Source: Solidesulfovibrio magneticus RS-1 (GTDB lineage: Bacteria > Desulfobacterota > Desulfovibrionia > Desulfovibrionales > Desulfovibrionaceae). From it: a DNA stretch of 64,000 nucleotides. Under the pieces are notes generated by a model. It had not been told where the DNA came from. It did no database searches and was given only the letters and a program-made list of their open reading frames with translations. Shown in pieces: positions 46,647 to 51,258 of the stretch. Within the stretch, counting starts at the first letter, position 1, and each line of letters opens with the position of its first letter. The DNA is taken from positions 3,997,501-4,061,500 of the forward strand of contig NC_012796.1 in assembly GCF_000010665.1 (NCBI RefSeq), written 5' to 3'. Both the position numbers and the translations under genes were made by a program.

Positions 46647-47000
46647 TTATTTCTTGAGTTGCCGGCTGGATTTAATGCAGCCGCCCGTGGCCGAGGCCAC
46701 CTTGCGCTGCATGTCCTCGGGCATGGCCCCATGGGTCAGGATGTGGCTGACGGTCTGGGAATTGAGCAAGGCGGACGTCTGCTGGGCGGCGCAGCGGCAG
46801 ATGGCCGCCACCTGGGCCTTGGTATAGCCCTGTCGGGTGAACTCCGCCTCTTTTTTGAGACAGTCCTGTTCGATGCTGCCCTGCATGGCCCGGCGCATTT
46901 CCGGGGTCACGGCCACCCCGCCGGCCGCCCGGACAGGTTCGGCCTGGGACGCCGTCAACAGGGCCAAGGCCGCCGCCAGCATCATGGCGCGCGTCTTCAT
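46647..47000 (-). CDS. small secreted protein with CxC motif, unknown
   Basis: 117 residues, ATG 47000 after AAGGAGG. A clear signal peptide (MMLAAALALLTASQAEPVRAA) gives a mature periplasmic protein of about 90 residues. The rest is helical and charged, with cysteines in QDCLKK, ICRCAAQ and GGCIKS, the CRC pair being notable; there is no CxxCH, so no c-type haem. It lies 105 bases downstream of the bd-like octaheme cytochrome gene on the same strand, so it could be an assembly or accessory factor for that complex, which is inference from position only. Confidence 0.7.
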   Translation of the reverse strand: MKTRAMMLAAALALLTASQAEPVRAAGGVAVTPEMRRAMQGSIEQDCLKKEAEFTRQGYTKAQVAAICRCAAQQTSALLNSQTVSHILTHGAMPEDMQRKVASATGGCIKSSRQLKK

Positions 47001-47105: not shown

Positions 47106-49739
47106 CTACTTGCTCATGTTGGGATGGTGGACGTCGCCGTCCATCTCGATGGTGTGGCAGACGTCGCAGCGTTTGCCCGAGGCCACCACCCCGGGCGCGC
47201 CCATATATTGCATAGGCGCTACGTTGTTGAGGTCAAGCCCGTAGTCGTTGACCGCGACATAGGTCGCATGGGGCGGTCCGTGGCAGGCGGCGCAGGGGAT
47301 GTTGCCGGTGTCCTCGGTGCGGTTGCGGAAAAGCCCGGCTGCGTCCTTGGTCCAGGCGTTGAACGCCGAGGCGTCCTTGGCCGGACGGGTGAAATCCTTG
47401 TGGCAGGTCAGGCAATCGGGCAGCTGGGTCCAGGCGGCCCGGGGCTGGACAGCGGCCGAGGTGGCCACCAGCCGGGGGGCCAGGGGGGCCAGCAGCCGCG
47501 CGGCGGCGGCCTTGCCGGCGGCCTTTTCGAAATTTAAAAGCGAGATGGCGTGATCTTCCATGTAGCCATGGCAGCGCGGGCAGCCGATGCCGGCGGCGGC
47601 GTGGTTGTCGCGCTGGGCCTGGGTGACGCCGGTCGGCGCGGTCGGATGGCAGCGGTTGCAGGCCTCCTCGCCAAGACCGGCCATGTAGGAGGCGTGGAAG
47701 CCATGGACGGCGGCGGACAGCGACAGCAGTTCCTTGCGTCCGGCCAACCCGGCGGCATTGGGCCCGGCGTCGGGATGGCAGCCAAAGCAGGCCACGGGAG
47801 CGCCTGAGGCGGCCTGGGCGGCCAGGGTGGTGCCGTTTCGCTTGTCGTGGACGGCCAGGATCGCCTGGGCCGTGGGTTTGGCGACGCCGGAGTCGCCTTC
47901 CTCGCGCCAGTCCCCGCCATGGCAGGTCTTGCAGCCCATTTCCGTGGACACGCCCAGGGGGACCTTGGTTTCGGCCACGGTCGCGCCCGAGGCGTCGGCG
48001 GCCGTCACCGTGAAGACCGGATAGGGGTTCACCTTGCCCGAGGCCTCATAGGGCGAGACCGGGATGCCGGCGGCGGTGAAAAGCTTGCCGGAAACGGCCA
48101 TGGTCCCGTCCGGGGACAGGCCCGTGACCGAGACATTGGGCGCGAGTTCCTTGCCCACAAGCGCCTTGGCGTATTTCCAGAACTCCAGCCGGGCGGCCGG
48201 GTCCTTGGCCCCGTCCGGGGCGGCGTAGCGCACGGTCAGGCCTTCGGTGGCCGCTTCCGGCAGCACGTCGCGCTTGACCACCACGGCTCGCAAGCCATTG
48301 CCCGGCACGGCCAGGGAAAACGAGCCGTCGCAGCCGGCCAGTGCCACCACGCCGAGTTCGCCAACGGCCAGCACCAGGTGGCTGGCCTTTTCCGGGTCAA
48401 AGGCCGGGATGGCCACCTCGGCCGGGGTCACCTCGACCGGCGTTTCCTTGGCCGGGGGCATCTTGTTCACATCCTGGGCGATGTAGGCGGCCAGGGCGGC
48501 CCGCTCGGCCGGGCTGCCGAGAAAGGGCGGCATGTGGGTGAAAAGCTTGCCCTGGCCGGTGAGGTAGGCTTCCAGGCCCACGGCCCCCACGTGGCGGGTG
48601 AACTTGCGGATGTCGCGCACCGGACCGTCGATGCTGTGGCAGCTCAGGCACTCAAGCGTATAGAGGTCCGCTCCGGCGGCCAGCGCGTTGTCCGGGGTTA
48701 CGTCATGAGTCCTGGCCCACTTGGCCCGGGGCAGGATGGGCGCTTCGTAGGGCGCGGCCTGGCTCGGACGGATATCCGTGGCCCACAGCATCCCTTCGAT
48801 GAGCCAGGGCTTGCGGGCGGCCTCGCGCATGGTCTCGAAGGCCCCGACCAGCCCCAGGCCCACCAGCAACAGGCACACGGCCAGCGCCCGACGAAGCGGC
48901 AGCGGCAGCCGGGAAACCAGGGCCAACGAACCCACGGCCACGGCCAGGAGCATGGCCGGCCAGGCGGCCCGGTAGGCGGCCATCTCGCTGGCCCGGCGCA
49001 GGAAGAAGTCGCGCACGGACTCGGGCAGCACGTCCACGTACCACCAGCCGGACACCAGCAGCACCGGCGCGGCGGCCACGGCCCAGCGGCTTGAGGCCCG
49101 CAGCATGGTCTCCCGGGCCTCCTCGTCGCCGATGCCCAGGGCCGTGGCAAAGCCGAACAGTCCGGCCAGCATCAACCCCAAAGCGAAACGCAACACCAAA
49201 GACGGCCAGAAGGTCGGATTGAAAAAGCCGTCCCAGAAGTCGCGGGTGGCTGGCCAGTCGCCCGGGGTGAGCATGAAGCCGATAATGCCGTTAATGGTGA
49301 ACAGCGACAGGAAGGCAAAGGCGAAATAGAGCCAGCCGACCAGCATGTGGCGCTTGGGGTCCAGCCGGTCGTAGCCGTAGTAGTAAATCAGCAGCGCCCC
49401 GATCTCGCCGGCGAAAAAGGCCCATTCGGCCGCCCAGCCCCAGGCGAAGGAACGCACCAAGATAAGCGTGGCCTGGGGGGAGAGCAGCGAGATCGTCAGC
49501 CAAATGCCGACCCCGGACAGGCCGCCGAAGACCATGGTGAGGAGCAGAAAAAAGCGGGTGTGGCGATGCAGGTAGGTGAGAAGCGGCCGCGAGCCGGTCC
49601 GCCGGGCCATGGCCTCGGTGAGGACCAGAAACAGCCCGCCGCCCACGGCGAAATGGGCCACGTACACATGCAACACGGCGATAAGAATGATCCAGAAGCC
49701 GCCGCCGAAGGCTCCGAGTTGCCAGACGGGAAAATCCAT
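47106..49739 (-). CDS. cytochrome bd subunit I-like membrane domain fused to octaheme cytochrome c
   Basis: 877 residues. Residues 1-330 form about eight membrane helices related to CydA: the early LHVYVAHFAVGGGLFLV helix with candidate haem histidines, and WAAEWAFFAGEIGALLIYYYGYDRL, which parallels the CydA glutamate helix, but without a long Q-loop. A class I cytochrome c domain follows with CLSCH at C364 and HMPPF as probable Met ligand. The C-terminal part (C603 to C858) has seven more CxxCH sites: CKTCH, CFGCH, CNRCH, CPRCH, CLTCH, CAACH, CDVCH. I infer a menaquinol-linked complex passing electrons to periplasmic haems rather than an oxidase. It starts three bases after its partner gene's stop. 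Confidence 0.85.
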   Translation of the reverse strand: MDFPVWQLGAFGGGFWIILIAVLHVYVAHFAVGGGLFLVLTEAMARRTGSRPLLTYLHRHTRFFLLLTMVFGGLSGVGIWLTISLLSPQATLILVRSFAWGWAAEWAFFAGEIGALLIYYYGYDRLDPKRHMLVGWLYFAFAFLSLFTINGIIGFMLTPGDWPATRDFWDGFFNPTFWPSLVLRFALGLMLAGLFGFATALGIGDEEARETMLRASSRWAVAAAPVLLVSGWWYVDVLPESVRDFFLRRASEMAAYRAAWPAMLLAVAVGSLALVSRLPLPLRRALAVCLLLVGLGLVGAFETMREAARKPWLIEGMLWATDIRPSQAAPYEAPILPRAKWARTHDVTPDNALAAGADLYTLECLSCHSIDGPVRDIRKFTRHVGAVGLEAYLTGQGKLFTHMPPFLGSPAERAALAAYIAQDVNKMPPAKETPVEVTPAEVAIPAFDPEKASHLVLAVGELGVVALAGCDGSFSLAVPGNGLRAVVVKRDVLPEAATEGLTVRYAAPDGAKDPAARLEFWKYAKALVGKELAPNVSVTGLSPDGTMAVSGKLFTAAGIPVSPYEASGKVNPYPVFTVTAADASGATVAETKVPLGVSTEMGCKTCHGGDWREEGDSGVAKPTAQAILAVHDKRNGTTLAAQAASGAPVACFGCHPDAGPNAAGLAGRKELLSLSAAVHGFHASYMAGLGEEACNRCHPTAPTGVTQAQRDNHAAAGIGCPRCHGYMEDHAISLLNFEKAAGKAAAARLLAPLAPRLVATSAAVQPRAAWTQLPDCLTCHKDFTRPAKDASAFNAWTKDAAGLFRNRTEDTGNIPCAACHGPPHATYVAVNDYGLDLNNVAPMQYMGAPGVVASGKRCDVCHTIEMDGDVHHPNMSK

Positions 49740-49742
49740 GTC

Positions 49743-50783
49743 CTAACCCCTTTTGGCCGTGCGGCGATAAGCGGCCACGGCCCAGACCGAGGCCGCGGCC
49801 ACGACAACCGTGCTTGCGACGAAAAAGACGAACGGTCCAATCTGGAAATCCTTGGGCAAGGTGGCCGGATCGAACTGCGGCGCCAGATAGCCCAACCGCG
49901 CCACCGACCGCACAGTCGCCATGCATACCACGGCCAGGGCCGTGAAAAAGGCCGCCCGGCCGGGCCGGCCCCGAAAGGCGGCCCAAAGCGCCGCCGCCGC
50001 CAGCCCCAGCCCGGCCACGAAGGCCAGGGAACCGCCGGTATGCAGGCCGAAAAACCGTTCTATCACCGGACGCGGCAGGGAAAGCAGATACCACAGCCCG
50101 AGGGGAATCTGGGCCAGGGTCGCGCCGATAAACCAGGCAAGGCCCGTGCGGCTGCGCCCGCCGGCCCCGGCGTCGGCCGCCTTGCGCGAAAAAAGCGCCA
50201 CATAAAGCCCGCCCACGGCCAGGGAGGCGGCCAGGAAATGCAGCCAGCGCGGCAGGAAGGTGGGGTCGGACAGCGCCGTCACCAGGCCGGCCGGGGCAGA
50301 GAAATAGCCCGTCCACAAGTCCGGCCGCACGGCCAGGGTCGAGACGTTGACCAAAATGAGGCTGGCCCCCAGCAGCAACACGGCCGAGGCGGCCGACAAC
50401 AGCCCCGCCCCCGGCGCGCCGGCCCGGGGCTGGTACACGTAAAGCAGGGCGTAGGCGATCATGACGACCATAAAAAGCGACAGCCAGGGCACGGCCGAGA
50501 CAATGGCGGCGGTATAGAGGTATTGGCCGTAGAGCACCGAGGCAAAAAGCAAGGGCGGCACGGCCAGATTGACGCCGATGGCCACCGCCGACGGCAGGCG
50601 TTTGGCCAGCCCCACGGCCGTCTCGCGGCCGGCCCCGGGGGCGAAAAGCGTCAACAGCGTGCCGCCCAGGGCCACGTTGATCACCAGGATATGCGCGGCG
50701 AAGGTGAGCACGAGCAACGCCTCGACAAGGCCCCACGGGCCAGGGATGGCCTCGCCCGGGGCCAGGGTCATGACTGGGGACAT
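49743..50783 (-). CDS. multi-pass membrane partner of the bd-like octaheme cytochrome
   Basis: 346 residues from ATG 50783 (after GGGAGAG); the longer frame to 50912 covers promoter sequence. About nine hydrophobic helices. The first, LVEALLVLTFAAHILVINVALGG, resembles the first helix of the downstream protein and of CydA-like subunits (histidine followed by a VNxALGG turn), so the two may be distant paralogues forming a heterodimer. No CxxCH motifs. The charged C-terminus (AYRRTAKRG) is probably cytoplasmic. It is the first gene of the operon, with the octaheme gene only three bases downstream. I do not recognise a named family. Confidence 0.7.
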   Translation of the reverse strand: MSPVMTLAPGEAIPGPWGLVEALLVLTFAAHILVINVALGGTLLTLFAPGAGRETAVGLAKRLPSAVAIGVNLAVPPLLFASVLYGQYLYTAAIVSAVPWLSLFMVVMIAYALLYVYQPRAGAPGAGLLSAASAVLLLGASLILVNVSTLAVRPDLWTGYFSAPAGLVTALSDPTFLPRWLHFLAASLAVGGLYVALFSRKAADAGAGGRSRTGLAWFIGATLAQIPLGLWYLLSLPRPVIERFFGLHTGGSLAFVAGLGLAAAALWAAFRGRPGRAAFFTALAVVCMATVRSVARLGYLAPQFDPATLPKDFQIGPFVFFVASTVVVAAASVWAVAAYRRTAKRG

Positions 50784-51258
50784 AGGAAACGTCTCTCCCT
50801 TCCCGGCCGCGAGGGCACGGAAGCTTTCGCAGGCCTTGCGGCGGCCTATTCTGCGGATTTCCCCCTTTCTATACGAAAATATGGGAGCCATCACAACGAA
50901 AAAGGCTCGCAAACGGACTCCGCGCCAAGGTGGAGACCCGGCCGCCTCACGCGGCCGGCCAGCGACATGGGCATTGGCCGCGACAGCGGCCCCGGACGTT
51001 TCACCCGTTCCAGCCAGCCCCGGCCGACGGCCCAGCCCCCTGCCCCGCCCCTCGACGCGCCGGCCGCGCCGTGCTAGGGCCAGCGCAAAAAAGGGGAGTG
51101 CCTACCCTGGTTTTTCCCTTTTCCCGCCCGGCCCTTTGCCCTTGGACGGTCCAAGGCCATTTCCCCTTTAACCGGGCGGGTTTTTGCGCCAGCAAACGGG
51201 AGCCTTCCCGTCACCATAGGCGGCAGGCCGCGTGCCCGCCCCAAAGGACGCGACACCC
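50784..51258. other. intergenic region between bd-like operon and the menG operon
   Basis: 475 bases without a gene. Divergent promoters should lie here. At 51123-51185 CCCGCCCGG and CCGGGCGGG enclose an inner CTTGGA-cgg-TCCAAG hairpin and are followed by TTTTTG, resembling a terminator or attenuator on the plus strand. At 51246-51256 GGACGCGACAC matches the right end of the MITE-like family and abuts the next start codon; no matching left end is seen. Confidence 0.5.
51123..51185 (+). terminator. possible leader terminator/attenuator before the menG operon
   Basis: A 9-bp outer stem CCCGCCCGG (51123-51131) with CCGGGCGGG (51172-51180), an inner 6-bp hairpin, and TTTTTG at the end. It lies 75 bases before the next start, in the leader of the downstream genes. 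Confidence 0.5.

Follow-up and report, generated by a model that had tools for sequence, protein, structure and literature searches.

The subject of this analysis is a pair of adjacent genes in the genome of Solidesulfovibrio magneticus RS-1 (5,315,620 bases in three contigs), a member of a genus of sulfate reducers. The genes lie within a 64,000-nucleotide stretch of contig NC_012796.1 (positions 3,997,501 to 4,061,500), referred to here as the window. Their products, a large subunit and a smaller partner, probably form a membrane-bound member of the cytochrome bd superfamily, an enzyme that would draw its electrons for O2 reduction from c-type cytochromes of the periplasm and not from quinol. 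We favour an oxidase because the sequence retains the whole oxygen end of a bd enzyme, has lost the quinol end and places a chain of c haems after the helix that carries E306. Loci are identified below by L numbers and genomes by G numbers. Papers given by PMC number are cited from excerpts of their text.

The large protein consists, in order, of a CydA-like membrane domain, a class I cytochrome c domain, a beta-rich domain and a seven-haem domain (Table 1). Its eight CxxCH motifs begin at residues 364, 603, 651, 694, 720, 776, 816 and 858. Pfam identifies Cyt_bd_oxida_I at residues 19-233 (37.1 bits, cut-off 26.2) and, also above their cut-offs, MtrC/MtrF II-IV and Cytochrome_C7 in the C-terminal part; Cytochrome_CBB3 (residues 352-420) reaches 21.8 bits, under its cut-off of 27. 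In the list of open reading frames (ORFs) the stop codon of the partner is followed by three bases and then by the ATG of the large gene, both genes being on the minus strand. An upstream TTG at 50912 is an alternative start for the partner and would extend it to 389 residues. An earlier, sequence-only reading of the window had described a fusion of a bd-like domain with eight c-type haems (one class I cytochrome c domain and seven further CxxCH sites), a glutamate-bearing helix, the absence of a long Q-loop and a partner three bases upstream, and this description proved accurate throughout. The nearest named relatives of the large protein are from S. magneticus metagenome-assembled genomes (95% and 94%) in a genome scan from which records of the organism's own genome may have been omitted. 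A second multihaem gene was sought in the RS-1 genome and rejected, as only the large gene itself was found at E 0.01.

The membrane domain belongs to the cytochrome bd superfamily, its homology with CydA being evident both by profile and by fold (Foldseek, VIA). Conservation was counted in a core set of 57 rows: the window and 56 rows from loci L004 to L063, including near-copies of the window (L004, L005, L041) and omitting L020 (cut), L021 (first part in another frame), L040 (a copy of the window) and L043 (identical in sequence to L005). The positions corresponding to bd haem ligands and the proton path (H24, E105, E112, E306 and R309) are invariant in 57/57 rows. This is also true of E302 and R305. 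E105 and E112 lie in the third-helix segment, the glutamate-bearing WAAEWAFFAGEIG (residues 102-114). In the hhalign comparison with the genome's own CydA, E105 and E112 map to E98 and E106, with a spacing one residue shorter. The match of E306 to the own CydA is taken from the longer profile alignment together with the motif; a shorter second alignment covers 228 columns, with helices 7-8 outside it.

The positions of reference in Escherichia coli bd include His19, His186 and Met393, and by this numbering we take H183 of the own CydA to be the b558 His. In the large chain this position is occupied by a leucine (L183) next to an invariant arginine (R184). In the predicted structure (AlphaFold2, AF2), helices 6 and 7 are separated only by a short linker, residues 237-250, and there is no long Q-loop. 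Both marks of a canonical quinol oxidase, the Q-loop and the b558 His, are therefore missing from the large chain. Glu99 and Glu445 are haem ligands in E. coli bd, and the two glutamates of the third helix are likewise one residue closer together in Geobacillus bd than in the E. coli enzyme (PMC6853902); the role of E. coli Glu107 is known from a title cited in PMC8509429.

These results bear directly on the sequence-only reading, which had interpreted the pair as a menaquinol-to-periplasm conduit and not as an oxidase. In such a conduit, the membrane part would oxidise menaquinol, the c haems would export electrons to periplasmic or surface cytochromes and O2 would not be a substrate. The same interpretation is in print for a cable-bacteria CydA homologue (PMC12093952) and it is a live rival, but we consider it unlikely here. 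The large subunit lacks both the Q-loop and the b558 His, the positions for O2 reduction are invariant, and a conduit would have no need for the E112 and E306/R309 positions. On present evidence the pair is an oxidase rather than a conduit, and a variant within the cytochrome-c-linked part of the bd superfamily, which is uncharacterised.

The CxxC haem-c site that follows helix 8 is present in 57/57 core rows and the full CxxCH in 56/57, but the rows were retrieved with a query or profile that included the class I domain, and this conservation is therefore partly a result of selection. Individually, C364 and C367 occur in 57/57 rows and H368 and M403 in 56/57, the exception being L027, where the frame is disrupted. 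The class I domain is similar to cytochrome c6 and to c subunits from bc1 complexes, and its first cysteine lies 55 residues beyond R309. It is also the only PF13442 match genome-wide (G000:C2:4045980-4046186). For the beta-rich domain no convincing fold was obtained: the best Foldseek row outside the bd proteins was p53, at E 0.066, and the VIA list was filled by one domain.

In the seven-haem part, seven histidines outside the CxxCH motifs (631, 679, 682, 713, 824, 871 and 872) are invariant in 18/18 eight-haem rows, which would be enough for bis-His ligation of all seven haems. In Desulfovibrio sp. A2 (L022) this part is a separate gene (L022:7366-9261, plus strand), approximately 60 bases downstream of the core. 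It encodes ten CxxCH motifs, a C-terminal class III cytochrome c3 domain (PF02085, 58.9 bits) and, by eye, a hydrophobic N-terminal stretch, and it ties the module both to the large subunit and to the cytochrome c3 pool. The module of L027 is likewise a separate gene, with nine CxxCH. In a midpoint-rooted tree of the membrane domain (55 rows, L005 and L041 being left out, with long branches such as L031), the fused form falls within one supported group of 42 rows (96/94), which also includes a CSSED10-310 row and several other families. As the split form nests inside this group together with the one-haem forms of L023 and L054, the fusion of the membrane domain with the seven-haem module is probably ancient, with splitting or loss coming later. 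Three other loci (L035, L039 and L044) have seven CxxCH instead of eight and a glutamine at position H29; this glutamine is also found in L022, L027 and L048.

The partner, judged from its sequence, is a degenerate CydA paralogue. The sequence-only reading had noted a first-helix pattern shared with the large protein. The likeness is real but is not limited to that helix: it extends over 272 columns of the large core (hhalign E 2.6e-9), and the two subunits have the same fold as one another. The hhalign profile probabilities are 94-96% against the large core, 87% against 20 CydA and 0.03% against 12 CydB, and identification of the partner as CydB was accordingly rejected. No Pfam or NCBIfam match was found for it at E 1, and 0/22 members of its alignment match Pfam at E 0.01. 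Its invariant residues are H31, N36, Y115, H182, M288, R292 and R296. The partner set comprises the window and 51 further rows (51 distinct in all), with L015, L016, L020 and L049 omitted (none found in the available stretch) together with L018, L019, L027 and L028 (cut) and L040 (copy).

A search for the same two genes in relatives had been suggested with the sequence-only reading. The genome scan identified 29 named loci that encode the large protein or its core, 27 of which are included in alignment A4 (L021 and L027 are not). Eight CxxCH are present in 18 of them (L004-L019, L021, L024), two in six loci from Verrucomicrobia, the FCB group, Acidobacteria and one uncultured organism (L025, L026, L028, L029, L030, L032) and one in L022, L023 and L031; in L027 the frame is disrupted and L020 is cut at a contig end. 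With so many loci, and 18 carrying the eight motifs, the architecture is not a chance product. The partner adjoins the core in 26/29 loci. The exceptions are L015 and L016, in which the gene begins at a contig edge, and L020. Within the family, the core is present in 70/119 genomes (E 1e-70 or better), 53 of these having an open frame of 800 codons or more, and the partner in 69/119. The two are adjacent at 74 of the 75 core places. The adjacency scan placed them on one strand at 73/75, the partner preceding the core at 65 places and following it at 8, with a largest gap of 111 bases. The 74th (G102, partner downstream) was found by direct inspection and the last, in G014, is one half of a gene split between two contigs. 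In a draw across the phylum, 51/297 genomes matched the core at E 1e-70 or better (a hand count, with at most five candidates scored per genome). In addition to the usual core with its partner upstream, three genomes (G058, G093, G105) carry a second and more distant one, 451-496 codons long, whose partner lies downstream; G105 has, in addition, two cores of the usual kind.

The following path would account for these features. Hydrogenases and formate dehydrogenases feed the periplasmic c3 pool, and the RS-1 genome has c3-family matches at six places in four open frames. Low-potential cytochromes of this pool would donate electrons to the seven-haem module; the donor is the least certain step of the path. 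The next carrier would be the class I haem c (His/Met), located past the end of helix 8, and from there electrons would go to a haem held by E306 and on to a neighbouring haem held by H24/E105. O2 would be reduced at this H24/E105/E306 haem pair, whose haems may be of the b or d type. Protons would be drawn from the cytoplasm along E112, and turnover would for this reason be electrogenic. The partner would replace CydB in the dimer, forming its second half, and may carry a haem b of its own. Cytochrome c as a donor has been considered elsewhere: only one of three bd families has a quinol site and the others use cytochrome c or possibly other donors (PMC8509429), and the OR-N enzymes likely use cytochrome c (PMC10839748).

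The neighbourhood of the pair provides little guidance. The menaquinone genes mentioned in the sequence-only reading are indeed nearby: a UbiE-family gene (51461), a PNP-family protein (53825), VitK2_biosynth (54749) and a polyprenyl synthetase (55726). The UbiE-family gene, the only one of these traced across loci, lies beside the pair only in the Solidesulfovibrio loci L004, L005, L007 and L008 among the 29 loci with flanks, and otherwise occurs only in L021 (a 35% match approximately 4 kb away). Being nearly confined to Solidesulfovibrio, it is weak functional evidence, and we rejected the neighbourhood as strong support for a quinol-linked role. Conserved accessory genes were also rejected: among the best 60 recurrent ORFs, from 15 loci, at least five loci share only the pair, the module and shadow frames, and inspection of 20 loci by eye revealed no recurring accessory gene. 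Downstream of the large gene (46647-47000, minus strand) is a 117-residue protein with several cysteines, secreted-looking by eye, which is kept in L004, L005, L007 and L008. At L012 (1187-3802), the opposite strand carries, upstream, a gene of the molybdopterin-oxidoreductase family and one for a class III cytochrome c; by eye these resemble part of a Qrc menaquinone reductase.

The neighbours also bear on a protective function, in which the haem pair would reduce NO, peroxide or O2 mainly as a scavenger, with no respiratory role. Besides two canonical CydA, the RS-1 genome already encodes one haem-copper oxidase, and oxidant-defence families occur within three ORFs of the core in 3/20 loci (L020, L032, L015; a count with no control for chance). 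No single stress gene recurs among the 20 loci, however, and the invariant proton-path position E112 favours charge-coupled turnover, which leaves this explanation improbable. Least probable is a reversed flow, in which electrons from the periplasm would be used by the membrane part to reduce quinone: menaquinone is within reach of low-potential periplasmic cytochromes, and the related NrfD-like fold, matched here, binds quinone, but the conserved residues are those of an oxygen site.

Table 1. Features of the gene pair in the window and oxidant-defence neighbours at related loci
Feature	Coordinates	Strand	Details
Large subunit gene	47106..49739	(-)	877 aa; ORF and CxxCH count, Pfam, AF2 model, Foldseek, VIA
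Membrane domain, residues 1-311	48807..49739	(-)	Eight long helices, CydA fold
Third-helix segment W102-G114	49398..49436	(-)	E105 aligned with haem-ligand Glu, E112 with proton-path Glu
Helix 8 end, E302..W312	48804..48836	(-)	E306/R309 aligned with own CydA E376/R379 (E-V-G-R-Q-P-W)
Class I cytochrome c domain	48450..48695	(-)	C364-x-x-C-H368, probable distal ligand Met403
Beta-rich domain, ~residues 450-600	47940..48392	(-)	AF2 secondary structure
Seven-haem domain, residues 603-872	47124..47933	(-)	Seven CxxCH; partly like MtrC/MtrF domains II/IV
Partner subunit gene	49743..50783	(-)	346 aa
Two rubrerythrins	L020:4373-5451		Oxidant-defence neighbours
SelR (methionine sulfoxide reductase)	L032:5294-5854		Oxidant-defence neighbour
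CCP_MauG peroxidase piece	L015:4893-5222		Oxidant-defence neighbour

Several observations weigh against a cytochrome-fed oxidase. According to a 2021 review, every bd enzyme that has been characterised is a quinol oxidase (PMC8509429), and in the literature surveyed we found no assay of any family member. H182 of the partner aligns with the b558 His, and a quinol site in the partner is therefore possible. AF2 confidence drops from residue 301 on (blocks of 69, 44 and 42) and is low just past E306. At L020 the partner was not found in the available stretch, where the gene is cut at its 3' side and the eight-haem form is presumed, and L049/L084 (G275, outside the family) has eight CxxCH with no partner within 12 kb; the partner is thus perhaps not strictly required, or is located elsewhere. 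The neighbourhoods contain no common gene pointing to oxygen. Finally, a canonical CydA match is present in 70/70 core-bearing family genomes (as a fragment in G062 and in pieces in G027). The pair is thus no replacement for CydA, and this co-occurrence neither favours O2 nor separates the hypotheses.

If the pair does reduce O2 as proposed, it would short-circuit the periplasmic cytochrome pool of sulfate reducers directly to O2, and it would reveal how the bd fold came to be rewired from quinol to cytochrome c. Annotators also gain a second subunit that is invisible to Pfam models. A much broader role is tentative, and we would not expect it to hold in full: the pair may serve anaerobic and electroactive Desulfobacterota in general as their cytochrome-fed O2 reductase, the partner having a second haem site (H31, H182, M288). 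It would then explain the c3-linked reduction of O2 in the periplasm of Desulfovibrio. It would also be the missing terminal oxidase of cable bacteria, provided that their orphan CydA is a member of the family and has a partner. That a partner without a Pfam model explains this orphan is conjecture. In the account excerpted, cable bacteria have no complete bd oxidase but only homologues of CydA, and whether they truly lack a terminal oxidase becomes testable (PMC10030654). The same applies to the identity of the enzyme by which Desulfovibrio reduces O2 with periplasmic electrons. This question was reportedly taken up by Baumgarten et al. in 2001 (cited in PMC13047784).

Among known systems, the OR-C family of Murali, Gennis and Hemp (2021) is reportedly defined by a haem c in the CydA-like chain. 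The large protein has such a haem c site (CxxC in 57/57 rows and CxxCH in 56, the rows having been selected with this domain in the query), and its CydA-like chain is without a quinol site. In the latter feature, and in having cytochrome c as the probable donor, the pair resembles OR-C (PMC13189123, PMC11707229, PMC10839748, PMC8509429), but, in a comparison by features only, it carries eight c haems instead of the one to three of the short relatives found. The OR-N CydAA' of Nitrospirota and Nitrospinota (PMC10839748, PMC12342949) is likewise built of two CydA-type subunits, with cytochrome c as its proposed donor; compared by description only, it differs in that here haem c is fused to the large subunit. 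The CydAh of cable bacteria, again compared by description only, combines a CydA-like chain with a periplasmic cytochrome c domain and has been proposed to reduce O2, but the excerpted text mentions no second subunit (PMC13047784). As the sequence-only reading had supposed, the literature among the matches listed, which did not cover Murali et al. 2021, holds no characterised enzyme with the eight-haem architecture. Canonical cytochrome bd (CydAB; 5doq, 6rko, 7oy2, 9r2g) shares the fold of both subunits, the two active-site haem ligand positions and the proton-path glutamate, whereas the pair is without a Q-loop, its large chain without the b558 His, and its partner unrelated to CydB by profile. 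Part of the seven-haem module matches domains II/IV of the outer-membrane decahaem cytochromes MtrC/MtrF. In contrast to the decahaem outer-membrane chains of MtrC, MtrF and OmcA, the large protein joins eight CxxCH to a membrane domain of helices, and the seven haems of its module are tethered to this inner-membrane domain.

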